Source: an uncultured Acidimicrobiales bacterium (GTDB taxonomy: Bacteria; Actinomycetota; Acidimicrobiia; Acidimicrobiales; SHLQ01). From it: a stretch of 64,000 nt of DNA. The position numbers and the translations under genes are program-made. The stretch covers positions 1 through 64,000 of the forward strand of contig CALHTF010000003.1 in NCBI GenBank assembly GCA_938038815.1, in the 5' to 3' direction. Each line of letters starts with the position of its first letter. Within the stretch, counting starts at the first letter, position 1. Positions 1 through 62,855 of this stretch are shown piece after piece. The notes beneath the pieces were generated by a model, which did not search any database, had not been told where the DNA came from, and was given only the letters and a program-made list of their open reading frames with translations.

Positions 1-1
1 C

Positions 2-325
2 AACCTGCTGACCTGTGAGACCGAAGGGCTCGCGGTCGGTGAAGAGATCGTGGTCACCATCGTCACCCGGACCGTCAACCAGGTAAACGAAGTGACCAAC
101 ACCGCCACGGTGAGCGCCGATGCGCTTCAAGGTGGAACCGGCCAGTCGAGTGCGTTCGAGGCAGCAGCCAGCGAAGTGGTAACCCGCCCGCCGACCCCGC
201 CGTCACGCCGCCCGCTCGCCTTCAGCGGTGCCAGCAGCCTCATGATGGCTGCGGTAGCACTGGTGTTGGTGGCGTTCGGTGCACTCCTCATCCTCGGTAG
301 CCGCCGCCGTCGCAACGAGGCGTAA
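2..325 (+). CDS. C-terminal fragment of a surface protein (DUF11-like repeat end, Pro-rich linker, TM helix, RRRR tail), truncated at window edge
   Basis: Frame is open from the window start; ends VNEVTNTATVSAD...LAFSGASSLMMAAVALVLVAFGALLILGSRRRRNEA, a hydrophobic helix plus positive tail typical of a cell-surface anchor. Confidence 0.7.
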   Translation, partial: NLLTCETEGLAVGEEIVVTIVTRTVNQVNEVTNTATVSADALQGGTGQSSAFEAAASEVVTRPPTPPSRRPLAFSGASSLMMAAVALVLVAFGALLILGSRRRRNEA

Positions 326-431: not shown

Positions 432-1808
432 GTGCCGACGGCGCCCACCGATGTCATTCGTATGTTCTCCTGCAAACTCGACGACACCGGGACCACCCGC
501 GACGATCGATCCCGCGTACTCCTTGCTGGCCTCCTCGCCGTGCTGGTCATCGTTACCCTAATAGCCACCAACGGTTCTCCAAGCCCGACCGCATCAGACC
601 CGGCACAAGACGACTCCGTTGAACCACGCGCCGAAGTTCTTGGTACCTCCGAGGACCGCCCGGCCCTCACCCGAGAGTCCGGCCTTCCCACCAACGCTCG
701 CGGACCTCGATGGTGGCCAGAGAACCTCGACAAGCCAACGAAGTATGGATTCATTCGGCCGGTCATAGGCAAAAACGTCGGCCACCGGGTAAGCAACCTC
801 ACCGACATCAGCGGCCTGCGCAACGACGGTCCCCACGGATTGACGATCGATGCCAATTTCATCACCCAAAATCGCCAGAAACCATGGATCACGAGCGAGG
901 GCGGCCGCACGGTCATCAAGGGCGTTTCAACCAAGGGCGTTTGCCTGAACATCACGACCACGATCACGCTTCGAGACTCGTCGATATCTTGTCCGACTCG
1001 AACCCAAAGTGACCGGTGGGGATACGTCGGACGCGACAACCACGCTCCGGGGATCAACATTCTCGCTCCCGATGTCACCATCGAGTACACGACTGTCGTG
1101 TGCACCGGCTACGACAACGAGATCTGCTCTCGCACGATCTGGGGCGGCAAGAACTCCCTGATCCAATTCAACGACCTGTCGGGTGCGGCGGGGATTGTCG
1201 AACTCACTTCCAACACTCGAGTCGAATACAACTACATGCACGGACTGGCCTTCGGCGCTGACCGCCGCCAGACCAACGCCAACAATAACGGCGGCATTAC
1301 CCACAACAACGTGATCAACAGTCTCGGTTACCCGGGCGGCACCGTCGTCGGTAACTACATCGAGGCCACCTATGGGCGAGTATCGGCCAATCCGCAGTGG
1401 CACCGCACGACCCAGTACCTGTACATCTTCGATGACGGCATCATCGAAGTAGGCGACCCGCTGAACGGATTCGTGTTCGCCCACTACCCCATCCTCGGCA
1501 GCGGCGAGGGCTACGTCGCTCGCCACAACTACATCGAATCCGCAGGGAGAGCGATGCTGTGCCAGCCATCCAACACCGCAACGGGCTGCGCGTCCGACAT
1601 GAGCTACAACGCGTTCGCCAAGGACAAATTCGGCGATTTCCGCCAGCAGCCGATGTTCCGGTCGACCAAACAACATGGGTCGTTCAGCGGCGAGTGCAAC
1701 TTTAAGCTCTCGGGCCCGAGTGACCTCTCGCCGAAGATCCTCGGAAAGAACATCTTCGACAACGGCGGTACCCATGGCACCGACGACTGCCGCCTCCCGA
1801 CGGGTTAG
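432..1808 (+). CDS. Secreted/anchored right-handed beta-helix-like protein (paralog A)
   Basis: N-terminal hydrophobic segment LLAGLLAVLVIVTLIA; Asn-rich short-strand pattern (NILAPDVTIEYTTVVC, YNYMHG, THNNVINSLG, GNYIEATYG, RHNYIES); strong similarity to ORF 3254-4546. Confidence 0.75.
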   Translation: MPTAPTDVIRMFSCKLDDTGTTRDDRSRVLLAGLLAVLVIVTLIATNGSPSPTASDPAQDDSVEPRAEVLGTSEDRPALTRESGLPTNARGPRWWPENLDKPTKYGFIRPVIGKNVGHRVSNLTDISGLRNDGPHGLTIDANFITQNRQKPWITSEGGRTVIKGVSTKGVCLNITTTITLRDSSISCPTRTQSDRWGYVGRDNHAPGINILAPDVTIEYTTVVCTGYDNEICSRTIWGGKNSLIQFNDLSGAAGIVELTSNTRVEYNYMHGLAFGADRRQTNANNNGGITHNNVINSLGYPGGTVVGNYIEATYGRVSANPQWHRTTQYLYIFDDGIIEVGDPLNGFVFAHYPILGSGEGYVARHNYIESAGRAMLCQPSNTATGCASDMSYNAFAKDKFGDFRQQPMFRSTKQHGSFSGECNFKLSGPSDLSPKILGKNIFDNGGTHGTDDCRLPTG

Positions 1809-1824
1809 GCCACAAGAGGAACGG

Positions 1825-3249
1825 TTACCGCCCCAGGCGCGTACGTAACGCGGCTACGCCGGTTCGGGCGTCGCCCCGAGCGAGCTTCGAGAGGTTGTCG
1901 GCCACGGTCTTGACCCGGCTCGACCGTGTCGCAGGGTTGAACGGCACCTTAAGCAGGCCCTCGTCACAGAGCGCGATCGAGCGCTTTTGCACCTCGCGAC
2001 CTTGTGCATGATCGGGATCATCGGGTTCCCACGTCATAACCTCAACCAGTTCGCTGGTGTCGGCAAGCTGCACCGACCGGGGCTGCAATAAGCCAATTCC
2101 CTGTTCGATTCCGCCCAACCAGCCGGCGCCGCGTTGATCCACATAGAGGCGGTCGCGCCAGCCAATCGTCGAGGGCTGATCGAGCCGAAACTGGCGCCAT
2201 TCGTGCATCGCCGGGATCACGAAGGACTTGGTGAGTGGGAGCAGACGGAAAGCTCGCGAGATCAGTCGCTCGAATTCGTCCTTGCCGGGCATCGTCGCGG
2301 TATCGGGACCGGGAAATAGTGCGTCCCACGTGCCGGATCCAATCTCAAACATCGCACCACGAACCAGGATGTCGTCGTCGGTGAACACGTCGAACATGCC
2401 ACGCGCCAGGAATCGTCGATCCGCATCGCGGATTGCACCCCCGGTGTGTTCGTCCCAGCGTGCGAGTGCCGATCTTTCGTTTCGGGTCGGACCGATCGGG
2501 TGGTGGCGGACCCCGGCGTCGTGGGACAAGCGGGCCGCCGTCTCGGTGTCCGCACCAGCCGGACTGGCCTCGGACTGGGTGTAGGTCTCAAAGTCGACGC
2601 CCTCCGCGAGGGCGGCGGCAAAGATCATTCTCGAGTCGTAGCCCGCGGTGAGCGCAATTTTCAGGTTGCCGAGTTCACTGGCCCGTCGAAGCTGAGCCTG
2701 CAGACCTTTCTGAAGCACCAACGCACGATCATCGAGCGAGCCACCGTTTGACCGGAGTCGGTTCGATTCATCGTGAGCTACCTCACCGGACCGAAGGGTC
2801 AGCTGTTGGTCTCGAATGAGGCGTCGCACCCCTGTGAAACCGCTCAGCGGAGGCACGATCCAGTTCGGGCGGTAGTCGCCAACCCGCAGGTTGCTCCGGG
2901 GAGCATTGACAGCATCGGCCACAAGCGGGGCGCTTGATCCGAGCGCGATGGTGTCGCCATTGGACGCCCAGTAAAGACTCAGCAGTCCCATCGCCGATTG
3001 CCGAGCAACCGGCCAGACCGACGCCCATCGACCCCCCTGTCGGCGAGCTTGGTCAAGACTCGCGCCGTCGTGAAAGAGCGGAAGGTCCCCGACGAACACG
3101 CCGTCGTCAGATTCGACCACCGTGAGCGCCGGGTCGTGGTGCAAAAACCAGCCCGGCTCCAGTTCTCGAGTCGCGTACCAAGAAACCGGTGCATTCTCGG
3201 TGGAGGCAACAAGGAATTGCCGGGCATGAAGTTGGCGCATGAGGGTCAT
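1825..3249 (-). CDS. Asparagine-synthase-related protein with a degenerate glutaminase half
   Basis: ATP-PPi loop-like motif KIALTAGYDSRMIFAAAL; start set at MTLMRQLHARQF, 4 nt after the upstream gene's stop; no Cys2, so the class-II amidotransferase site is missing. Confidence 0.65.
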   Translation of the reverse strand: MTLMRQLHARQFLVASTENAPVSWYATRELEPGWFLHHDPALTVVESDDGVFVGDLPLFHDGASLDQARRQGGRWASVWPVARQSAMGLLSLYWASNGDTIALGSSAPLVADAVNAPRSNLRVGDYRPNWIVPPLSGFTGVRRLIRDQQLTLRSGEVAHDESNRLRSNGGSLDDRALVLQKGLQAQLRRASELGNLKIALTAGYDSRMIFAAALAEGVDFETYTQSEASPAGADTETAARLSHDAGVRHHPIGPTRNERSALARWDEHTGGAIRDADRRFLARGMFDVFTDDDILVRGAMFEIGSGTWDALFPGPDTATMPGKDEFERLISRAFRLLPLTKSFVIPAMHEWRQFRLDQPSTIGWRDRLYVDQRGAGWLGGIEQGIGLLQPRSVQLADTSELVEVMTWEPDDPDHAQGREVQKRSIALCDEGLLKVPFNPATRSSRVKTVADNLSKLARGDARTGVAALRTRLGR

Positions 3250-3253
3250 TTCA

Positions 3254-4546
3254 CTAGAAACAGTCGGCTGTTCCGTGAGAGCCGCCGTTGTCGAAGATAT
3301 CACCCGGCAGCACCTCCGGAGTCGGGTCAAGCGAATCGTCGAGCGTGAAGTTGCAGCGGCCGCCAAAGGTCCCGTTGTCTCTCGTTGAGCGGAACATCGG
3401 CTGTTGGCGGAAGTCGCCGAAGCGGTCTTTGGCGAAGGCGTTGAAGCTCATGTCGGCGGCACACCCGGTTGCGCTATCTGATGGTTGGCACGACATCGCT
3501 CTCGCTGCGGATTCGATGTAGTTGTGGCGAGCGACGTAGCCCTCGCCGCTTCCGAGGATGGGGTAGTGGGCGAACACGAATCCGTTCAACGGATCGCCGA
3601 CCTCGATGATGCCACCGTCGAAAATGTTGAGGTACTGGGTGGTTCGATGGTTGTCCGGATCGGCCGATACTCGGCCATAGGTGGCCTCGATGTAGTTACC
3701 AATAACCGACGCCCCGGTATGGCCGAGGCTGTTGATGACGTTGTTGTGGGTAATGCCGCCGTTGTTGTTGGCGTTGGTCTGGCGGCGGTCAGCACCGAAG
3801 GCCAGTCCGTGCATGTGGTTGTACTCAACGAGACTGTCCTGCCCCAGTTCAACAATGCCCGCCGCTCCGGAAAGATCGTTGAAGCGAATCACCGAACCCG
3901 TGCCAGCCCAAACGGTCCGCGAGCAGATTTCGTCGTCGGTGCCGGTGCACGTGACCGTCGAGTGCTCGATGATGACATCGGGCGCAAGAATGTTCACCGC
4001 GGGCGCATGGTTATCGCGTCCGACATACCCCCAGCGGTCGCTTTGGCTTCGCGTCGGGCACGAAACCAGCGAATCTCGAAGCGTGACCGTGGTGGTGATG
4101 TTGAGGCATACCCCGACCGCCGAGACCGAGTGGATCACGGTGCGGTCCGCCTCCTGAGTTATCCATTCGGCCGACGAATGTTGGTTGAGAAAGTTGTCAT
4201 CGATCGTCAGCCCGGACGCACCATCGTTCACCAGACCGGCGATATCGGTAAGCGCTTCAACGCGGTGGCCGACCGTGACCCCCTTGACCGGTCGCACAAA
4301 CCCGTAGTCGGGTGGTTCCTGCGGCACCTCCGGTTCGACCGAAACACCGACGGTGGTGACAACGGTGCCCACCGATTCTTCACCCAAGGTCGCCACGGTG
4401 GTCGAGGTAACCGCCGGTTTTTGCGCCTGGTCAGACCCCTCGATCGCCGATCCCGGAATCGTGCCTACCGCCAGGACAACCAATCCGAAAACGAGCGACA
4501 CCACATAGGGCCACGGGGTTTTTCGGAAGGGGATCACCTTCACCAC
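3254..4546 (-). CDS. Secreted/anchored right-handed beta-helix-like protein (paralog B)
   Basis: Near-identical blocks with 432-1808: FGADRRQTNANNNGGITHNNVINSLG, GIIEVGDPLNGFVFAHYPILGSGEGYVARHNYIES; N-terminal TM VVSLVFGLVVLAVGTI. Confidence 0.75.
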   Translation of the reverse strand: MVKVIPFRKTPWPYVVSLVFGLVVLAVGTIPGSAIEGSDQAQKPAVTSTTVATLGEESVGTVVTTVGVSVEPEVPQEPPDYGFVRPVKGVTVGHRVEALTDIAGLVNDGASGLTIDDNFLNQHSSAEWITQEADRTVIHSVSAVGVCLNITTTVTLRDSLVSCPTRSQSDRWGYVGRDNHAPAVNILAPDVIIEHSTVTCTGTDDEICSRTVWAGTGSVIRFNDLSGAAGIVELGQDSLVEYNHMHGLAFGADRRQTNANNNGGITHNNVINSLGHTGASVIGNYIEATYGRVSADPDNHRTTQYLNIFDGGIIEVGDPLNGFVFAHYPILGSGEGYVARHNYIESAARAMSCQPSDSATGCAADMSFNAFAKDRFGDFRQQPMFRSTRDNGTFGGRCNFTLDDSLDPTPEVLPGDIFDNGGSHGTADCF

Positions 4547-11246: not shown

Positions 11247-11680
11247 GGGAGTACCTCTCCGTCAGCGACCGGTCGTACCCGCAACAAGAGCCCACCGTCA
11301 TCGCTATCTTGCTTTTGCCACAGCCAAACCTGGTTGGTCGACCGAATGATGCCGCGTTCTTCGACAACCTCGACCCCGGTGCGGTCGAGTTCGTCGTAGT
11401 CGTCGCCCGCCATGCTCGCCCGGCCATCGACACACAACACGTCGCCGTCCTGGTCGAGCAGCCGGAAACAGATCTGGAACACGCCGTTGCTGCCCTCGAG
11501 GTAGTAGCCGCCGACCGTGCGGGTGAATCCGTCGGCGTCGACGATGGGACCGCTCGCTTCTTCGATTTCCTCGGCGAACAGACCCGCGTCCTCGCCAGGT
11601 CCACCGTCAGCAGACGAACAGCCCAGCAACGCCAAAGCGAGCATCAGACCGAAGCCAACTCGACGGATCAGAAGCGCCAA
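11243..11680 (-). CDS. Small lipoprotein of unknown function
   Basis: Lipobox LALALLGC after a hydrophobic N-terminus; no recognised domain. Confidence 0.55.
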   Translation of the reverse strand: MALLIRRVGFGLMLALALLGCSSADGGPGEDAGLFAEEIEEASGPIVDADGFTRTVGGYYLEGSNGVFQICFRLLDQDGDVLCVDGRASMAGDDYDELDRTGVEVVEERGIIRSTNQVWLWQKQDSDDGGLLLRVRPVADGEVLP

Positions 11681-14600
11681 CGTTCGGCCAGCTTCGCGAC
11701 GTCGAGGGTCAGCAGTTCCGAAATTGGCTGGTTGGCCAGGAGATCTTCGCGGAAGGTCGGTTCGGTTTCGGTAACCGCGTCTCGAATAGCCGAGAACCGG
11801 TTGCGGTAGCCCTGGAGCACACCCCGTGCGGTGCTGGCATCAAGGTGATCCTTGAGTCGAACGTGCAACAAGGTCAGGCCGACGGTGTTGTCGTCTTTGA
11901 TCTCGGGCACGATCACCATCTGGCGATCATCACGACGGCCAACCGAAACCAACAAGCGCTTCTCGGTCGCAACACGGTGCTTGGTACCACGAAGGGTTGG
12001 ATCGCGATCGGTTCGCGACGGAATGCTGAGGCTGATGCCACCCCGGTCGATGATCACGGCGGTGCCGTCGCTGTCGCCATCGGTCATCTCGATGCGGTAG
12101 CGGGTGAAGCCCACAACCTCTTCGACCGCAGGGTCGAGGTCGGCAAGGGTTCGAAGGGCCTTGTAGGTGAGTTGGTCGCGGGGAGCGCCAGCGTCGAGCA
12201 CGGCTTGGGCCAAAGCAACCTGCAGCAGGGTTTCGTCGGTGCGGGAGATACCCACGGTCACCGTCTTCGCCTGGTGCTTGATGGCATCGATCGGGCGGGT
12301 GAGTTCTTCGATCGCCAGCGACAACGTACTCACCAGGTCTTCGATCGCCACGGCTGGGGTCCCGGCCTTACCGAACTCGAGCTGGTACGACTCGATCGAC
12401 AGCTGGCCAGTGGCGTACCGAAACTGCGACGCAAGACGCGCTGCGGTGCTCGGTTCGATGTTGCCGTTGAGATTGCCGGTGCGAAGCTGATCAAAGTAGG
12501 TGTCAGCGAGCGGCTTGAGCTGAGGCTTCAGGTACTCGATGAGGTCTTCGCGCTCCTCGGCAGGCACCGCTGCAGCTTGCTCGATGGCGCTGCGAGCTTC
12601 GCGCAGCGGTTGAGCAAACGAGTCGATGGTGCGAGCTGATTCGTATCCGAACAGGTGACCCGCCATCGCGCTGAGGACAAAAGCCAAGCGAGGATGAACC
12701 TCGGGAACGTGAATAACGTCGAGGGCCGCGTTGAACCGCGACTCCCCTTCGTTGGCGATCACGATTGGCGCCGCCTTGTGCGCACGGTAAATCGCCACCT
12801 CTTTGGCCACGTCGTCGGCCGTACTACCGACCAGACCAGCGGCACAGACCAAGATCATTGGTTCGGCCGAGAGGTCGATGTGCTTTTTGTCTTCGGTTAC
12901 GTCGACGGCGATCGACTTGTAGCAAAGCTCGGAGAGTTTGATTCGCAGCTCACGAGCGGAGATGTGATTCGGGCCGTTACCGACGACCGCCCAGTACTTT
13001 CGGCTCGGCGCGTGACGACGGGTGGTCTCGGCGATGGTCTCTTGGATCTTGAGGACCCCTTCCATCGCTTCGGGCAGACGGCGCAACTCGGCCAGCAGTT
13101 CGCTGCGGCTCTGGTCGTCGCCGTTGCCGGTGAGTTCGGACACCTTCAATGCCAGCAACACACCAGCGGCGATCTGGGCGTAGAACGCCTTGGTCGACGC
13201 AACACTCATCTCGACGTCGCGACCGTCGGAGGTGTACAGAACGCCGTCGGCCTTGTCGGTGAGGTCGCTGTTACGACGGTTCACGATGGCGATCACCGCT
13301 GCTCCCCGACCACGGATGACGTCGACGGTGCGGTTGGTATCGGTGGTGGTTCCCGACTGGCTGATCGCGATGGCCAGCGTGTCGGACATATCGTTGCGCA
13401 ATCCAAAGCCGGAGAGTTCGGTGGCCGGGAGCGCATCCACATGGATCGGCGACTCGGCGAGTTCGTCGGCCAGGATCGTGGCGAGGCTCTCGCCCGCGAC
13501 CGCGGCCGTTCCCTGGCCAATCACCAAGATCTCGCGAATCGAACCGGTGCTCAGCCGTTCGACGATGTCGGTCGGGATCGTATCGGTGCCCAGCTGCACG
13601 GCAAGTTGTTTGCCACGGTCGGCGATCTTGCCGCGAAGGGTCTTGCGAAACGACTTCGGGGCTTCGGTGATTTCCTTAAGCAGGTAGTGCCGGTAGTTAC
13701 CACGGTCGATATCACGGGTGGTGATCTGGGCGGTCACCACGTCGTCTTCGGTCACCGGAAGGTCGGTACCGTCATAGGCCTTGCGAACAATGCCTTCGAT
13801 GGTTCCGGCCGCTGCTGCGTTGAGATCGATGATCTGGCCGCGGCTGGCGTTGGGGTTCGAGGGGTTACCCGGGGTCTCGCCATCCATGCGCAGGTAGCGG
13901 GAGGTCTCTTCGACCACGCCATACGGCTCGCTGGCGATGATGAAGCTATCTTCGGCCAACCCGACGTACAGCGCTTGGCCGCTGCCGCGCAGTGCAAGCT
14001 GCAGGTGGTCGGCGGCTTCGGCGGAGTTGCTGGCGATCGCCACCGATCCTTCGAGTCCGGCGACGGTGCGCCGGAATGCTTCAGTCACGTCGTGGTCGGC
14101 GAGGTAGTTCGACATGAGGGTCGGAATGACCTTGGCGTCGGTGGTGATCTCTTCGTCGATCGACAAGCCTTCGGCGGCGATCACATCGGCAAAGTTGTCG
14201 ACGTCGCCGTTGAGTACCGCGGTGCAGTACGGGCCTTGGCGATCGTCGACCTGCTCGCTGTTCAGCGGGTGAGCGTTGGGTTCAGAGACAATGCCGACGC
14301 TCGCCCAGCGGGTGTGGCCGAGCACGACGGTTTGGGCCGTCTCGTTGTCGATCGCTTGGCGCAACAGGTCGTCGGCCGCGATCGCCGATCGGATGAAGCT
14401 GGTGTTGTCGCCGAGTTCGCCGATCTCGGCGGCCATTTTGTACACGAAGCTGAGCTTGTTCCCGACCACCCGAACCGCGGCGTTGGTGAACAACTTGTTA
14501 TGGGTGCGTTCCTCAAGGGCGGCGATTACCGCCGCAGAATCCAGATCGAGGCCATGGTTACGAACCAGCAGATGGAGCCCCGCGGAGTCACGGCCTCGGA

Positions 14601-15096
14601 CCTCAAGGCGGTCGAGGGCCGACAAGGCCTGTTGAACGGCGGTCATCGTCTCGATGGCCGACAGCTTGGCCTCGGGGCCAGACAGCTTCTCGACCTCAAC
14701 CGCGGTACGGAGCCGGTCGCGTTCGATTCCCCACGCGTGGTCCTTGACCAAGATGAAGGCTTCGTTGACCCGTTCGAGGTCGGCGTCGAACTGGCCCTCG
14801 TTGAGGCGAATCTCCAGCAGGTCGATCTGGTCGCTGACCGATGTCGACAACGCCGTTACCTCGGTGACCAGGTCGGGGCTACCAAGCATGGCTCGTACCC
14901 CGGGAACACCCCGCAGCAAATCGTTGCATTGGCCAAGTGACTCGGCGACCGCTACCAGTCGGTCCGCCAGGCCGGTCGATTCGTCGGCCAAAGCAAGTAA
15001 CTCTTGTTGCGCCAGGCGTAGCGGAGCGAGGACTTCTTGGTTTGCGGGTACAGAGCGCTCAGAACGGCGCTGGACAACTGCGATTATTCCGCACAT
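11668..15096 (-). CDS. glmS: Enlarged glutamine--fructose-6-phosphate aminotransferase (GlmS-like, 1142 aa)
   Basis: MCGIIAVV N-terminal Cys; LDRLEVRGRDSAGLHLL; GHTRWASVGIVSEPNAHPL; CTAVLNGDVDN; SIS motifs AIAISQSGTTTDTNRT and VASTKAFYAQ; adjacent glmM. Confidence 0.88.
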   Translation of the reverse strand: MCGIIAVVQRRSERSVPANQEVLAPLRLAQQELLALADESTGLADRLVAVAESLGQCNDLLRGVPGVRAMLGSPDLVTEVTALSTSVSDQIDLLEIRLNEGQFDADLERVNEAFILVKDHAWGIERDRLRTAVEVEKLSGPEAKLSAIETMTAVQQALSALDRLEVRGRDSAGLHLLVRNHGLDLDSAAVIAALEERTHNKLFTNAAVRVVGNKLSFVYKMAAEIGELGDNTSFIRSAIAADDLLRQAIDNETAQTVVLGHTRWASVGIVSEPNAHPLNSEQVDDRQGPYCTAVLNGDVDNFADVIAAEGLSIDEEITTDAKVIPTLMSNYLADHDVTEAFRRTVAGLEGSVAIASNSAEAADHLQLALRGSGQALYVGLAEDSFIIASEPYGVVEETSRYLRMDGETPGNPSNPNASRGQIIDLNAAAAGTIEGIVRKAYDGTDLPVTEDDVVTAQITTRDIDRGNYRHYLLKEITEAPKSFRKTLRGKIADRGKQLAVQLGTDTIPTDIVERLSTGSIREILVIGQGTAAVAGESLATILADELAESPIHVDALPATELSGFGLRNDMSDTLAIAISQSGTTTDTNRTVDVIRGRGAAVIAIVNRRNSDLTDKADGVLYTSDGRDVEMSVASTKAFYAQIAAGVLLALKVSELTGNGDDQSRSELLAELRRLPEAMEGVLKIQETIAETTRRHAPSRKYWAVVGNGPNHISARELRIKLSELCYKSIAVDVTEDKKHIDLSAEPMILVCAAGLVGSTADDVAKEVAIYRAHKAAPIVIANEGESRFNAALDVIHVPEVHPRLAFVLSAMAGHLFGYESARTIDSFAQPLREARSAIEQAAAVPAEEREDLIEYLKPQLKPLADTYFDQLRTGNLNGNIEPSTAARLASQFRYATGQLSIESYQLEFGKAGTPAVAIEDLVSTLSLAIEELTRPIDAIKHQAKTVTVGISRTDETLLQVALAQAVLDAGAPRDQLTYKALRTLADLDPAVEEVVGFTRYRIEMTDGDSDGTAVIIDRGGISLSIPSRTDRDPTLRGTKHRVATEKRLLVSVGRRDDRQMVIVPEIKDDNTVGLTLLHVRLKDHLDASTARGVLQGYRNRFSAIRDAVTETEPTFREDLLANQPISELLTLDVAKLAERWRF

Positions 15097-38177: not shown

Positions 38178-38468
38178 TTAGACCTCGAACAATTCGATTG
38201 AGTCACCCTCGGCGAGGGTGATGATGGCCCGTTTTTGATCCGGGCGTGAGCCATAGGAGAAGTTGCGGCGGTTGCGCTTGCGCTTTCCCTTGCGGTTCAG
38301 CGTGTTCACCTTGAGCACCTTGACGTCAAAGATCGACTCAACGGCTTGCTTGATCTCGGGCTTGCTGGACTCAGAAGCCACAACGAAGGTGTAGACGTTG
38401 TTCTCGATGAGCGAGTAGCTCTTCTCTGAGACAACTGGCCGGATGATTACGTCGCGTGGATCGTTCAT
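38178..38468 (-). CDS. rplW: 50S ribosomal protein L23
   Basis: [58 protein letters not shown]. Confidence 0.97.
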
Positions 38469-39088
38469 TAGGCGCCCTCTCCGGTGGGCAGGGTGTTCTT
38501 GGAGAACACAACCCAGTCCGAAACCAACACATCGTATGCGTTGAGTTCGCCGGGCGAAATAACGTGCACCTTTGGCAGGTTGCGCAGGCTCAACCAGGTG
38601 TTCTGGTCGTCTTTGTCGGCAACGGCCAAGACGCGACCCTCAACACCGAGAGCGCTGAGCAAGGCCACGCCGTTCTTGGTCTTGGGTGCATCGAACGGCC
38701 ATTGCTCGAGCACGATGATCTTGTGTTCACTCGCCCGGTCCGACAGGGCCGAACGCAGCGCCAGGTTGACCATCTTCTTTGGGGTCTTTTGCTTATACGA
38801 GCGGGGCTTGGGGCCAAGGGCCACACCACCACCACGCCATTGCGGCGAACGGGTCGAACCCTGACGGGCCCGGCCGGTGCCTTTCTGACGCCACGGCTTT
38901 GCGCCACCACCCGCAACCTCGGCCCGAGTCTTGGTGCTCTGGGTTCCAGAGCGCCGGGCGGCGAGCTGTGCGGTAACGACCTGGTGCATGACCGGGCCGT
39001 TGGGCTCAATGGCGAAAATGTGGTCAGGAACGTCGACCGAACCGGAGTCTTTGCCGGCAGCTGTCTTCATGGTGAGCGATGCCATCAT
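38468..39088 (-). CDS. rplD: 50S ribosomal protein L4
   Basis: [63 protein letters not shown]. Confidence 0.97.
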
Positions 39089-39771
39089 GAACCCTTAATT
39101 GCGTTGCGGACGACAACAGTGCCGCCCTTGGGGCCAGGTACGGCACCACGGATAAGAAGCAGATCGCGCTCGAAATCGGTTCCGACAACCTCAAGGTTGA
39201 GGGTCGTGACCTTTTCGCCACCCATGCGTCCGGGCATCTTCTTGCCTTTGAACACTCGGGCGGGGGTTGCGCACTGGCCGACGGCGCCGGGCTTGCGGTG
39301 CACCTTGTGGGCACCGTGGCTGGCTCGCTGGCCTTTGAAGTTGTGGCGCTTCATTGCACCGGCAAAGCCCTTACCTTTGCTGACGGCGGTGACATCGATG
39401 CGGTCGCCATCGGCGAACAGCTTGTTGTCATCTTCACCTTCAGCGCCGGCGGAACCAACGGAGATCTCTTGGCCGACTTCGTATTCGCTTACGTCGTCGA
39501 GGCGCAGCTCAAGGAGCTTCTCGCCTGGCGCAACGCCGGCTTTTTCGAAGTGACCAGCGGTCGGCATGTTCAGTTTGTTGGGGTTGACCTCACCAAACGT
39601 GACCTGCAGCGCACTGTATCCATCGGTGTCGGGACGCTTGATCTGAACAACCCGCAGCGGCGCGACCGACAATACGGTCACCGGTACCACCTGGTTGTTC
39701 TCATCCCAGAGCTGGGTCATGCCGACCTTGCGGCCCACAATCGCTCTACTTGTGGAAGTACTTTTCGTCAT
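39085..39771 (-). CDS. rplC: 50S ribosomal protein L3
   Basis: RAIVGRKVGMTQLWDENNQVVPVTVLSVAPLRVVQIK...GKGFAGAMKRHNFKGQRASHGAHKVHRKPGAVGQCATPARVFKGKKMPGRMGG; start at internal ATG. Confidence 0.96.
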   Translation of the reverse strand: MTKSTSTSRAIVGRKVGMTQLWDENNQVVPVTVLSVAPLRVVQIKRPDTDGYSALQVTFGEVNPNKLNMPTAGHFEKAGVAPGEKLLELRLDDVSEYEVGQEISVGSAGAEGEDDNKLFADGDRIDVTAVSKGKGFAGAMKRHNFKGQRASHGAHKVHRKPGAVGQCATPARVFKGKKMPGRMGGEKVTTLNLEVVGTDFERDLLLIRGAVPGPKGGTVVVRNAIKGS

Positions 39772-57134: not shown

Positions 57135-58067
57135 ATGGAGAAGATCAACGAAGGCCGCGTCGCGGTAGTGACCGGTGCCGGCCGAGGAATTGGTCGCGAG
57201 CACGCCCTTTTGCTCGCCCAAACCGGTGCCAAGGTTGTGGTGAACGACCTCGGTGGTTCGACCGACGGTGAAGGCAACGACGCATCGCCCGCCGAGCAGG
57301 TTGTCGAAGAGATCAAGGCCATGGGCGGCGAAGCGGTCGTGAACGGCGGCAACGTTGCTGTAGTGGCCGACGCCGACGCCATGATCCAGCAGGCCATCGA
57401 CACCTTTGGTGGTATCGACATCCTCATCAACAACGCCGGCATCCTTCGCGACCGCATGGTGTTTTCGATGAGCGAAAGCGACTGGGACGCCGTCATCAAC
57501 GTGCACCTCAAGGGCACCTTTGCCCCGACCCGCGCCGCCGCCGTCTACTGGCGCGAGCGCTCCAAGGCCGGCGAAACCAACGACGCCCGCGTGATCAACA
57601 CCACGTCGCCATCGGGCATCTACGGCAACATTGGCCAGAGCAACTACGGCGCCGCGAAGGCCGGCATCGCCGCCTTTACCCACATCACCGCCCAAGAGCT
57701 CACCCGCTACGGCGTTACCTGTAACTCGCTTGCTCCGGCAGCGTTCACCCGCATGACCGCCGACCTGCCCGGATTCTCGGGCATGGACGAAGAGACCCAG
57801 GAGAAGATGGGTCCCCGTTGGATCGCCAACGTCGCTACCTGGCTCGCCAGCCCGGCCGCTTCGGGCGTGACCGGTCGTTGCTTCGACGTGGTCGGCGACC
57901 GCATCGGTATCGCCGAAGGTTGGGTCCTTGGCCCGCAGGCGACCCAGACCGAAGACCCCGACGGCTTGGGCGATGTCATCGCTGGTCTGATGGGTGAAGC
58001 CAAGCTCAACGCCAACATGTTCGGTGTGCCCGAGGAAGGCCCCGGTCGTCCGAGCAAGAGCATCTAA
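57135..58067 (+). CDS. SDR-family oxidoreductase (acyl-CoA-metabolism-type dehydrogenase)
   Basis: VAVVTGAGRGIGREHALLLAQTGAKVVVNDLGGSTDGEG, INNAGILRDRMVFSMSESDWD, SNYGAAKAGIAAFT. Confidence 0.88.
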   Translation: MEKINEGRVAVVTGAGRGIGREHALLLAQTGAKVVVNDLGGSTDGEGNDASPAEQVVEEIKAMGGEAVVNGGNVAVVADADAMIQQAIDTFGGIDILINNAGILRDRMVFSMSESDWDAVINVHLKGTFAPTRAAAVYWRERSKAGETNDARVINTTSPSGIYGNIGQSNYGAAKAGIAAFTHITAQELTRYGVTCNSLAPAAFTRMTADLPGFSGMDEETQEKMGPRWIANVATWLASPAASGVTGRCFDVVGDRIGIAEGWVLGPQATQTEDPDGLGDVIAGLMGEAKLNANMFGVPEEGPGRPSKSI

Positions 58068-58076
58068 GATGAGCTG

Positions 58077-58838
58077 ATGTCGAACGATCGATCCCGCAGT
58101 CCCTTCGACCGGATTGCCGATCGTTACGACGAAACTCGTGGTGGAGTTCGACGGGGCCGGCAGTTTGCTGGCTCCGTCGATTCCTTTTTGGCGAGCCCGT
58201 CGGTTATCGCCGACCTGGGCGTGGGCACTGCGGCGGTTGCCGAACCGCTCACCGACCTGGGGCACACCGTGGTTGGGGTCGATCTCAGCTCGGCGATGCT
58301 CGACCAGGCTTCGGAGCGTATCCCTGGCCGACTGCTGGTCGGCGATGTCCAAACCCTGCCTCTCGATACCGACTCGGTCGACGCCGCACTTGCGGTTTGG
58401 CTGCTGCAGTTAGTCGGCGATTTCGATGCGCTGATGCACGAGATCGCTCGAGTTGTGCGGCCCGGCGGTTTGTTCTTCCACGTATCGTCAACGCCTCGGA
58501 TTGAGCCCAACGACATCACCGACCTCACCTTGAAGATGTCGGCGTTGTTGGGTCGGGGGTGGGACCGGTCGTCGACGCTGGCGTCGCGGCTCATGCCGTA
58601 CGGGTTTGTGTTCCAGACCGAGATCGCTATGGCCCACGACGATGTGAAGAAGTCGCCGAACCAACAGGCCGACTGGATCGAGTCGAAAGTGGCCTCGATG
58701 TTCTGGGATCTCGACCCCGCCGACTGGGATGCCTATGTGCAACCCACCGTCGACGCCCTACGAGCCCTACCGAAACCCGACAAGGCTCGCCGCTGTACCG
58801 AGAGCCACCTTCTGTCGCTTTACCGCCGCCGCGAGTAA
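58077..58838 (+). CDS. Class I SAM-dependent methyltransferase
   Basis: IADRYDETRGG, VIADLGVGTAAVAEPLTDLGHTVVGVDLSSAMLDQA, RVVRPGGLFFHVSS. Confidence 0.82.
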   Translation: MSNDRSRSPFDRIADRYDETRGGVRRGRQFAGSVDSFLASPSVIADLGVGTAAVAEPLTDLGHTVVGVDLSSAMLDQASERIPGRLLVGDVQTLPLDTDSVDAALAVWLLQLVGDFDALMHEIARVVRPGGLFFHVSSTPRIEPNDITDLTLKMSALLGRGWDRSSTLASRLMPYGFVFQTEIAMAHDDVKKSPNQQADWIESKVASMFWDLDPADWDAYVQPTVDALRALPKPDKARRCTESHLLSLYRRRE

Positions 58839-60130: not shown

Positions 60131-61246
60131 ATGGGGAACCAACAGGCTAGCGATCAACAAAGGTATCGAGTTGTGGTGTGGGGCACCGGCAACGTGGGGC
60201 GACCTGCGCTGCGCGCCGTGCTTGCCCACGACCAACTCGAACTCGCAGGTGTGGTCGTGTCGCACCCGGCAAAGGTCGGGGTCGACGCCGGGAAGTTGTG
60301 CGGACTCGACCCGGTGGGCGTGGCCGCGACCAACGACAACCAGATCGCCTTTGCCGACGACATCGATTGTGTGGTGTACGCCGCCACCGCCGATACCAGG
60401 ATCGAAGAGGCTACCGGTGAGCTACTCGGCCTTCTCGGCGCGGGCCGCAACGTGGTGTCGACATCGTTTTACCCGCTCCTGCACCCGGCTCACACCCATC
60501 CGATCTTGCTTCCGTTGGTCGACGACGTGACCACCGCCGGTAACACCTCGGTGTTCGTCTCGGGAATCGACCCGGGTTGGGTCATGGATATCTTGCCGGT
60601 CTTTCTCAGCGGCGTGTGTGCCGACATCACCGAGATCCGCGCCCAAGAGGTCTTCAACTACGCCTACTACGACCAACCCGAAATCGTTCGGGAGGTCGTT
60701 GGGTTTGGCACCTCGATGGACGAAACCCCACCGATGCTGCTCGATGTTGCGCTTCTCACCGTGTGGGCGCCGATGCTGCGGGTGGTGGCCGACGGACTTG
60801 GGCTCGAGCTCGACGACATCACCACCGAAGTCGAGCGTCGACCACTCACCGAGACCGTCGAGGTCGACGGCATGGGCACCTTTGAGGCTGGCACCCAGGG
60901 AGCGTTCCGGTTCGAGGTTCAGGGTTGGGTCGATGGCCAGAAGCTGTTGGTGGTCGAACACATCACCCGCATCGACGACCGGTGCGCCCCCGATTGGCCG
61001 AGTTCGCCCGAGAAGGGCGGCGTGCATCGGGTCAAGATTGCGGGTCGGCCGAACCTCGAGGTGACCGTGCACGGCAACGAAGAGGGCGAACCAGCGGCGG
61101 CCGGTGGCGGCAACGCAACGGCGGCGAACCGGATCGTGAACGCGATTCCCGCGGTGGTGGCCGCTGCGCCGGGCATTGTTTCGCCCCTCGATCTGCCGGC
61201 CATCGATGGTCGGCACCAAATCCGAAAGGCTGCTCCCAACCAATGA
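60131..61246 (+). CDS. Dihydrodipicolinate-reductase-like NAD(P)H-dependent dehydrogenase
   Basis: YRVVVWGTGNVGRPALRAVLAHDQLELAGVVVSHPAKVGVDAGKLCGLDPVGV, NTSVFVSGIDPGWVMDILPVFL. Confidence 0.78.
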   Translation: MGNQQASDQQRYRVVVWGTGNVGRPALRAVLAHDQLELAGVVVSHPAKVGVDAGKLCGLDPVGVAATNDNQIAFADDIDCVVYAATADTRIEEATGELLGLLGAGRNVVSTSFYPLLHPAHTHPILLPLVDDVTTAGNTSVFVSGIDPGWVMDILPVFLSGVCADITEIRAQEVFNYAYYDQPEIVREVVGFGTSMDETPPMLLDVALLTVWAPMLRVVADGLGLELDDITTEVERRPLTETVEVDGMGTFEAGTQGAFRFEVQGWVDGQKLLVVEHITRIDDRCAPDWPSSPEKGGVHRVKIAGRPNLEVTVHGNEEGEPAAAGGGNATAANRIVNAIPAVVAAAPGIVSPLDLPAIDGRHQIRKAAPNQ

Positions 61247-61917
61247 CATTCTTTACCAAAGAGTCGGCAAAGTTCTGGCGAGCGTTGGCCAAGAACAACT
61301 CCAAAGACTGGTTCGACGCCAACCGTAAGGACTACGAGAAGCATCTGAAAGCGCCGTACAACGCGCTTGCCGAAGCGCTGGTCGACCAGGTCAAAGAGGT
61401 CGAGCCCGAGTACCAGATCGGCCCCAAGCAGGCCACGTACCGGATCAACCGCGACGTGCGGTTCTCCAAGGATAAGACCCCATACAAGACCGAGCTCGGT
61501 ATCACGGTGGGACGCAACCACAAACACGATCCGGCGTACCCGGCCTACACCGTGCGAATCGGCGTGAATGGGCTCGCCGTTGCCGGTGGGCTGTACATGC
61601 CCGAACCCGAACTGCGCGACCACGTCCGCCGTTACGTGGCCGCAAACCACAAGGCGTTGGCCAAGGTCGAGGCACCCAAGACCACGTTCGCCAAGGTCTT
61701 TGGTTCGGTCGGCGGCGAGGCCCACAAGCGCGCCCCGGCCGAGTTGAAAGAGGCCGCTGAGATCGAGCCTCGGGTCCTCAACAAGCAGTGGGTGTACTGG
61801 GCTGACTTCAATGACAAGAAACTCTTCACCGACCCGAAACTCGATCAGTTCATCCTCGACCAATGGGAAGCGGCTCGCCCGGTGATGGAGTTCTTGAAGA
61901 AGGCAGTCGTCGTCTAG
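61243..61917 (+). CDS. DUF2461-family protein
   Basis: MTFFTKESAKFWRALAKNNSKDWFDANRKDYEKHLKAPYNALAEALV...QATYRINRDVRFSKDKTPYKTELGITVG; ATGA overlap with the upstream gene. Confidence 0.82.
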   Translation: MTFFTKESAKFWRALAKNNSKDWFDANRKDYEKHLKAPYNALAEALVDQVKEVEPEYQIGPKQATYRINRDVRFSKDKTPYKTELGITVGRNHKHDPAYPAYTVRIGVNGLAVAGGLYMPEPELRDHVRRYVAANHKALAKVEAPKTTFAKVFGSVGGEAHKRAPAELKEAAEIEPRVLNKQWVYWADFNDKKLFTDPKLDQFILDQWEAARPVMEFLKKAVVV

Positions 61918-61946
61918 TCGACCTCGGGCGCCTCTACGCTGGCGAG

Positions 61947-62855
61947 GTGAACTGTACAACGTGTGGAACCCCCCTCGAGCACGACTCGGTGTTTTGCCCC
62001 AGCTGCGGAACGGTGCCCGGTGCCGAGCCAACCCAAACCTTGCCGGCCGTCGGCCCAGAGTTTGAACCGACCCAACACATTCCGGTAGCCGAGCCCGCCC
62101 CGGCGGCGCAGATACCCCAGCAACCGTCGGTTGCGCCGCCGCCTCAACCGTCGGTAACCCCTCGACCGACCGCGCCGAGTGGTCAACCGAGCCAGCCGGT
62201 GTTCGTGCCCGAGCGCCGATCGATGTTGCCGATAGTCGCTGGACTCCTCGTTCTCGCCAGCCTTGTCGTTCTCGGCTTTTTGTTGCGCGGCATTTTCTCC
62301 GGCGACGACCCCGATACCGATGCTCCGGTGACCACCGACGAGGTGCCGGCCGTTACCGAAGCGCCAGCTCTCGAGTCGACGGTCGCTCCGGTCGAAACCA
62401 CTGCGGCACCCACGTTGGTCGAGGCGGCCGCGGGTAGCCCGTACGAGGGCAACTGCTTTGCGGCGGTTGTTCCGCCGGGCTGGGAACTGGTGAACAACGA
62501 CGAAGAAGTTGGCTACGGGATGCGTACAACCTGGCGCCGCGGTGGCGATCTGTTGTTTGTCGACTCGTCGCCGATCTCTGATCCCAATGTCACGTCGCGC
62601 GACGCCGCGGCGGGCCAGCTTGCGCAGCGCTCGACGGCGACGTCGGAACTGATCGACGAAGGCAACGATGCTTGGGGGTACACCTACACCCGGTCGGGCG
62701 CCCCAGCGATTGCGATCTACAAGGTCACCAGTCGAGGATTTGGCGTGGTCGGTGCCAGCCAAAACAATGCTGACCAGACCATCGCCGACGCCCGAGCGCT
62801 CATCATGTCGATCGAGGCGACCAACCCGACGTGCGACACCGGGTTGACTGGCTAA
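61947..62855 (+). CDS. Zinc-ribbon membrane protein with Pro/Thr-rich linker
   Basis: VNCTTCGTPLEHDSVFCPSCGTVPG, TM LPIVAGLLVLASLVVLGFLLRGIF, extracellular C-terminal domain; GTG start. Confidence 0.6.
   Translation: MNCTTCGTPLEHDSVFCPSCGTVPGAEPTQTLPAVGPEFEPTQHIPVAEPAPAAQIPQQPSVAPPPQPSVTPRPTAPSGQPSQPVFVPERRSMLPIVAGLLVLASLVVLGFLLRGIFSGDDPDTDAPVTTDEVPAVTEAPALESTVAPVETTAAPTLVEAAAGSPYEGNCFAAVVPPGWELVNNDEEVGYGMRTTWRRGGDLLFVDSSPISDPNVTSRDAAAGQLAQRSTATSELIDEGNDAWGYTYTRSGAPAIAIYKVTSRGFGVVGASQNNADQTIADARALIMSIEATNPTCDTGLTG

Follow-up and report, generated by a model that had tools for sequence, protein, structure and literature searches.

An asparagine-synthetase-like gene between two exported, putatively beta-helical paralogs: a possible exopolysaccharide modification module in Acidimicrobiales

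What is the function of an asparagine synthetase (AS)-like gene that lies between two inverted copies of a gene for an exported protein? The question is raised by 64,000 nucleotides (the window) from an uncultured Acidimicrobiales bacterium, which form the left end of contig C3 (73.8 kb) in a 4.58-Mb genome of 168 contigs. Near the contig end, two exported paralogs, BH-A and BH-B, flank P0002, an AS-fold protein that lacks a signal peptide and has an intact PP-loop and a dead glutaminase. This trio arrangement is conserved and looks undescribed, with component parts of known kinds; no description of the pairing of such an enzyme with twin helix proteins was found in the literature searched. 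The trio is read here as an accessory exopolysaccharide (EPS) modification module, with a probability of about 0.5.

The central asparagine-synthetase-like protein

P0002 begins MTLMRQLHARQF; it has no MCG start and no Cys near the start, and there is one Cys in the whole protein. An in-frame upstream extension to a TTG codon at 3366 holds no MCG start either. The PP-loop, LTAGYDSR, is intact at residues 200-207. The initial annotation described an AS-like gene with a PP-loop and without the Cys2 glutaminase start, and this description stands. It had also named an ordinary AsnB with a mis-called start as a refuting outcome. P0002 is not such a protein: the upstream extension is without MCG, and the ordinary AsnB of the genome is encoded by a separate gene on contig C103.

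P0002 has no signal peptide. It has no Pfam match, including to Asn_synthase (PF00733), even at E<=10, and no NCBIfam match at E<=1; its class is visible in profile and structure comparisons. When an alignment of the small AS-like family is compared by hhalign with the ordinary AsnB proteins of these genomes, the result is 95% (E 3e-8). In an hmmsearch of PDB sequences with a ten-sequence profile, the best match is beta-lactam synthetase 1jgt (E 1.8e-6); the match spans the PP-loop and the last part of the pseudo-glutaminase half. An AlphaFold model of P0002 (pTM 0.61) has beta-lactam synthetase (2e-8), AsnB and carbapenam synthetase as its top Foldseek matches. All 16 matches at E<=0.001 are beta-lactam, carbapenam or asparagine synthetases, plus TsnB9. 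On these predictions P0002 has the AS fold, with a pseudo-glutaminase half and a PP-loop half. A phmmer match of P0002 to angiopoietin-1 receptor was judged to be due to chance, as it is local, has a low bit score and involves an unrelated fold.

Beta-lactam synthetase (1JGT/1MBZ) and carbapenam synthetase (1Q15) are the best sequence-profile and structure matches of the AS-like family. They share with it the two-domain AS fold, in which the glutaminase half is inactive and the PP-loop half binds ATP. They differ in that identity is only about 13%, the trio has no antibiotic cluster and a polysaccharide setting, and the AS-like family does not conserve the C-terminal lysine motif typical of AS enzymes. 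The lasso cyclases (McjC type) are likewise ATP-dependent amide formers of the AS class without glutaminase activity, and the initial annotation had pointed to them. This candidate was rejected. NCBIfam gives no lasso-cyclase match for the trio, neither a B protein nor an ABC exporter was seen, and the gaps of 4, 16 and 43 nt are too small for a precursor.

Relatives were sought in samples of 297 genomes of the order and 345 of the class, in which each sampled genome has a G-number and the window genome is G000. The glutaminase Cys is absent from all 12 AS-like proteins compared, P0002 included. The PP-loop pattern G-x-D-[ST]-R is kept in P0002 and in the proteins of G277, G395, G326, G304, G023 and G194; it is not kept in G273. 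The G273 relative of P0002 is a lone AS-like gene (L012:7396-9012) with an intact reading frame, in which the PP-loop has decayed to SAGPHAR; this protein probably no longer binds ATP.

The paired outer proteins and their inverted repeat

BH-A and BH-B each consist of a hydrophobic N-terminal segment (Kyte-Doolittle 2.6 and 2.1, respectively, over 19 residues), a linker and a domain of about 350 aa. No Pfam or NCBIfam family fits either protein. The four BH homologs (two from the window and two from G277) have eight Cys in common, along with numerous Asn, Asp, Arg and His positions, as would be expected of an extracellular disulphide-bonded protein. The G277 proteins carry Thr-rich linkers.

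An AlphaFold model, built from four sequences only, predicts a parallel beta-helix for about the first half of the domain (BH-B residues ~100-245; model residues 30-170). Its short consecutive strands have pLDDT 70-90 at model residues 20-90 and 25-68 at 90-170; the rest of the model is unresolved. Foldseek returns a non-significant list of mostly carbohydrate-active helices, including PL6 alginate lyase (E 0.3), AlgG epimerase and pectin methylesterase. A beta-helix fold is likely on this model, and the BH proteins may be polysaccharide-active. Their likeness to PL6 lyases, AlgG and pectin methylesterases is that they are exported and have a predicted beta-helix in the first half of the domain; the difference is that they have no significant sequence or fold match and that catalytic residues are not identifiable. 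A phmmer match of P0003 to YadA/invasin was judged to be due to chance (local, low bit score, unrelated fold).

The two BH proteins are 74% identical over 358 aligned aa without gaps and 74-75% identical over the helix domain. In the DNA, the repeat consists of four blocks, of 529 nt (82%), 321 nt (75%), 75 nt and 38 nt; inverted repeats that arise by chance in this 12-kb stretch are at most 37 nt long. The alignment therefore bears out an inverted repeat of about 1 kb around the AS-like gene, far above background, and the open reading frame (ORF) coordinates of both paralogs and the 4-nt spacing to the AS-like gene are also as initially annotated. The paralogs are inverted and homologous and share long blocks; "near-identical", as they had been called, is too strong. 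Nonsynonymous divergence (dN) is 0.18 and synonymous divergence (dS) is 0.90 (Nei-Gojobori; dN/dS 0.2), with a longest exact DNA run of 46 nt. It follows that both copies are under purifying selection and that they did not arise by a recent duplication. Nor is the repeat a duplicate created in assembly, since a quarter of residues differ between the copies and a second genome also has the trio.

Within a tract of about 100 bp in BH-A (Table 1), 29 of 30 codons are identical among identical residues (permutation p 0.0009); this tract is likely to have been gene-converted between the copies. BH identity is higher within genomes (75% in the window, 52% in G277) than between them (39-47%), which may reflect either concerted evolution or separate duplications.

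Inverted arms around a gene raise the possibility that the AS-like gene changes orientation when the BH copies recombine, as in a phase-variable, invertible cassette. The conversion-like tract shows that the copies can recombine, and gene orientation differs in G277. Against this, the arms are 18-25% different with dS of about 0.9, the 46-nt run is their longest identity, and none of the neighbouring genes examined encodes a recombinase. Moreover, the G277 genes are in tandem orientation, and an inversion would change the pairing, seen in both genomes, of the AS-like gene with a preceding BH gene on its own strand. The cassette suggested by the initial annotation is the least likely of the rival explanations and is very improbable.

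Recurrence of the arrangement

Among the 297 genomes of the order, both BH homologs are found only in G277, which belongs to the same family as the window genome and to a different genus. There they flank an AS-like gene, so that the trio, whose conservation elsewhere was a key point of the initial annotation, does occur in a second genome. A scan of the genomes of 84,980 species gave one record only, JAHDEJ010000019.1 (a metagenome-assembled genome of an Acidimicrobiales bacterium), which is evidently the G277 contig. BH is absent from the same-genus genomes G077, G219 and G239 and from at least ten further family members; in G077 and G219, unrelated metabolic genes follow tsaD in place of the trio. 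No trio relatives were found in viral contigs, phages or plasmids. An untrimmed BH profile was positive in 53 of the 345 class genomes. Nearly all of these matches are weak and fall in the N-terminal Thr/Pro-rich part, not in the helix domain, and they were rejected; a trimmed profile leaves only G277, plus a single weak helix in G203.

The G277 trio is collinear (+ + +), with a 10-nt overlap between the AS-like gene and BH-2. The gene order is Wzy_C protein, glycosyltransferase, BH-1, AS-like, BH-2, Polysacc_synt flippase and glycosyltransferase; an NAD-dependent epimerase and a WecG/TagA-like protein (names read from sequence) lie in the same locus. The same contig (C86) encodes, about 33 kb from the trio, an AS-class protein with MSGL in place of an MCGI start and an intact PP-loop (L079:1489-3276).

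A search with the AS-like profile also led to G395, a genome from another family of the same class. Here an AS-like gene lies between two secreted paralogs (62% identity across the aligned domain) in the exact layout of the window: a (+) paralog ends 4 nt from the stop of the AS-like gene (-), which is followed after 22 nt by a (-) paralog. These paralogs are judged to be beta-helical from their sequence. By hhalign they are not detectably homologous to the BH proteins of G000 and G277; the G395 trio is consequently an analogous case, not a homologous one. Its AS-like protein matches Asn_synthase (PF00733) at 39.8 bits against a cut-off of 21 bits. The contig carries Wzz- and Wzy-like genes and glycosyltransferase, sulfotransferase-like and nucleotidyltransferase genes (most names are from sequence, those of the AS-like genes from Pfam). 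The G395 proteins have no relatives in plasmids. What surprises most is the recurrence of this layout with secreted proteins of another, unrelated family, for which one extra genome is the basis.

Further AS-like genes were seen. In G395, a second one (L119:8031-9785; ALSGGLDTR) has a 4-nt overlap with a Wzy-like gene in the same polysaccharide locus. In G326, three tandem glutaminase-dead AS-like genes (L108:7939-12703) lie beside sugar nucleotidyltransferase and flippase-like genes.

A proposed role, and the surroundings of the trio

Two surface precedents are available for an AS-class enzyme. AsnB-class proteins of the WbpS/WbqG type, from O-antigen loci and the linking-sugar loci of the type IX secretion system, turn sugar acids into amides (PMC7468200); AsnH-type peptidoglycan amidation is the second (PMC3885529). 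WbpS and WbqG resemble the trio enzyme in being encoded by an AsnB-class gene in a Wzx/glycosyltransferase locus, with a sugar amide as proposed product (PMC7468200). Such a location is found in G277 and supported in G395, while the window contig ends before such a locus could show. P0002 differs in the missing glutaminase Cys and in having no NCBIfam match.

In the EPS-modification reading, the AS-like enzyme should act in the cytoplasm, as it has no signal peptide. Its substrate would be a sugar acid linked to a nucleotide or lipid, or an amino-acid substituent; the enzyme would at the least adenylate the carboxylate there and, in the full reaction, join it to ammonia or an amine, so that the repeat unit becomes amidated or aminoacylated. 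The chemistry would be that of the WbpS/WbqG uronamides, except that glutamine would not be used: free ammonia or a dedicated amine would take its place, given the missing glutaminase Cys. From the WbpS/WbqG precedent and the polysaccharide setting, the substrate may be a sugar acid or an amino acid linked to a sugar; the genomic context makes sugar acids likelier than peptides. Wzx/Wzy would export the polymer, and the anchored beta-helix pair would bind, cut or epimerise it outside the membrane. The two diverged BH copies might handle two sites or bonds, with occasional gene conversion between them. Chemistry and substrates, and every step past fold and location, are inferred. The core of the initial idea, a surface-protein module with a dedicated ATP-dependent enzyme, survives, supported by the co-occurrence in G277 and the separate AsnB.

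In favour of the EPS-modification reading are the polysaccharide locus around the G277 trio, the analogous trio of G395, the setting of the G326 genes, the AS fold of P0002, the conserved Cys, membrane segments and weak carbohydrate-active fold matches of the BH proteins, their purifying selection, and the WbpS/WbqG precedent. Several observations weigh against it. The AsnB lysine motif RxKxGF is not seen in P0002 or its AS-like relatives (ten aligned; the alignment there is weak), so that amide formation would need another residue. In this region P0002 has PFNPATRSS and several relatives have [PR][FY]N, again in an uncertain alignment. Alternatively, the AS-like protein might be a pseudoenzyme without catalysis or with a regulatory role, for example a binder of EPS precursors, with the BH proteins as the sole effectors. 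Loss of the lysine motif in the ten aligned proteins and of the glutaminase Cys in all 12 fits this alternative, as does the loss even of the PP-loop in the closest relative of P0002. It is improbable given the PP-loop kept in the seven genomes listed above, which a pure scaffold need not retain.

Other adverse points concern the setting. In the window genome only tsaD and a surface protein can be seen next to the trio; to its left the contig ends, and the EPS context is therefore carried over from relatives. P0002 groups with the lone AS-like protein of G273 and not with that of the G277 trio (97/94 support; long branches), which suggests that the trio may have been put together anew from enzyme and helices and not handed down as a fixed unit. 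The AS-like genes of G304 and G273 adjoin no recognisable EPS or BH genes. Such loci, and the restriction of trios with homologous BH to two genomes, would also be expected if AS-like and beta-helix genes were frequent cargo of variable surface-polysaccharide islands, together by chance and with no functional link. This is unlikely, though not negligibly so: spacings are tight or overlapping (4 nt, -10 nt), one AS-like gene lies between two BH copies in both genomes, and G395 has the same layout with another secreted family.

The outer proteins contribute the remaining difficulties. The BH model is poor (mean pLDDT 47; 74 of 354 residues at >=70), and all its fold matches are non-significant (Foldseek E >= 0.3). 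In addition, G395 has two further copies of its helix family without an AS-like neighbour. These copies also count against the suggestion that the enzyme modifies the BH proteins themselves, by a C-terminal or side-chain amide or isopeptide, with the twins as substrates. The enzyme is tightly linked to both candidate substrates, and ribosomal peptides are substrates of several AS-like enzymes (lasso cyclases, TsrC, ScdTA and PesC; PMC13060819). On the other hand, the BH proteins are large, exported, Cys-rich domains whose modification would have to precede export, their C-termini vary in type (..DCF, ..DCRLPTG, ..QGC and a long tail), and no leader-like or precursor-like feature was seen. Modification of the BH proteins is accordingly a doubtful explanation, with little chance of being correct.

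From the contig end, the gene order is surface-protein C-terminus (+), BH-A (+), AS-like (-), BH-B (-), tsaD (-) and a housekeeping run (Table 1). The gaps are 106 nt between surface protein and BH-A, 16 nt between the BH-A and AS-like stops, 4 nt between the BH-B stop and the start of the AS-like gene (same strand, BH-B upstream), and 43 nt between BH-B and tsaD.

Table 1. Features at the left end of the window
Feature	Position	Strand	Details	Basis
BH-A, secreted/anchored beta-helix-like protein	432..1808	+	458 aa	ORF, hydropathy, identity to BH-B, G277 homologs
BH-A parts			N-terminal membrane segment, residues ~29-47; helix-like domain from residue ~100	
AS-like gene (P0002), glutaminase-dead asparagine-synthetase/beta-lactam-synthetase type	1825..3249	-	474 aa; ATG at 3249	
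BH-B, BH-A paralog	3254..4546	-	430 aa; N-terminal membrane segment, residues ~15-33	
Inverted repeat, left arm	798..1789	+	within BH-A coding part	
Inverted repeat, right arm	3261..4252	-	within BH-B coding part	
Likely gene-conversion tract in BH-A	1464..1560	+		codon identity to BH-B, permutation
tsaD	4590 onwards	-		
Surface protein	1-325	+	last 107 aa	weak DUF11 match, weak LPXTG-type anchor match

The surface-protein C-terminus is DUF11-like, with an LAFSG anchor, a hydrophobic segment and an RRRR tail; in G077, an SdrD_B-repeat protein with a similar LAFTG tail is encoded in the region past tsaD. Elsewhere in the window, a GlmS-like protein of 1142 aa (11668-15096, -) is about double the usual size. 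It has an MCG start, about 240 extra residues before its GATase_6 match (254-390) and one SIS match only (521-650). Long candidate ORFs at 38459-39550 (+), 57135-58352 (-) and 60922-62031 (-) have no Pfam family at E<=1e-4.

AS-class enzymes are known for the synthesis of asparagine, uronamides, beta-lactams, lasso peptides and peptide C-terminal amides. A branch of the class that is tied to polysaccharides and has neither the glutaminase Cys nor the usual lysine motif would indicate new surface-sugar chemistry. A broader proposal is offered tentatively, as possible but rather doubtful: that twin secreted paralogs bracketing a glutaminase-dead AS-like enzyme without the lysine motif are a recurrent, independently assembled architecture of actinobacterial surface-polysaccharide loci. 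It would mark an ATP-dependent modification not yet described, either an amide or some other linkage, installed intracellularly and handled outside by a dedicated helix pair. None of the three proteins (P0001-P0003) has a Pfam or NCBIfam family; the twin helix proteins are candidate lyases, epimerases or binders, and the arrangement provides a genomic signature that can be surveyed.

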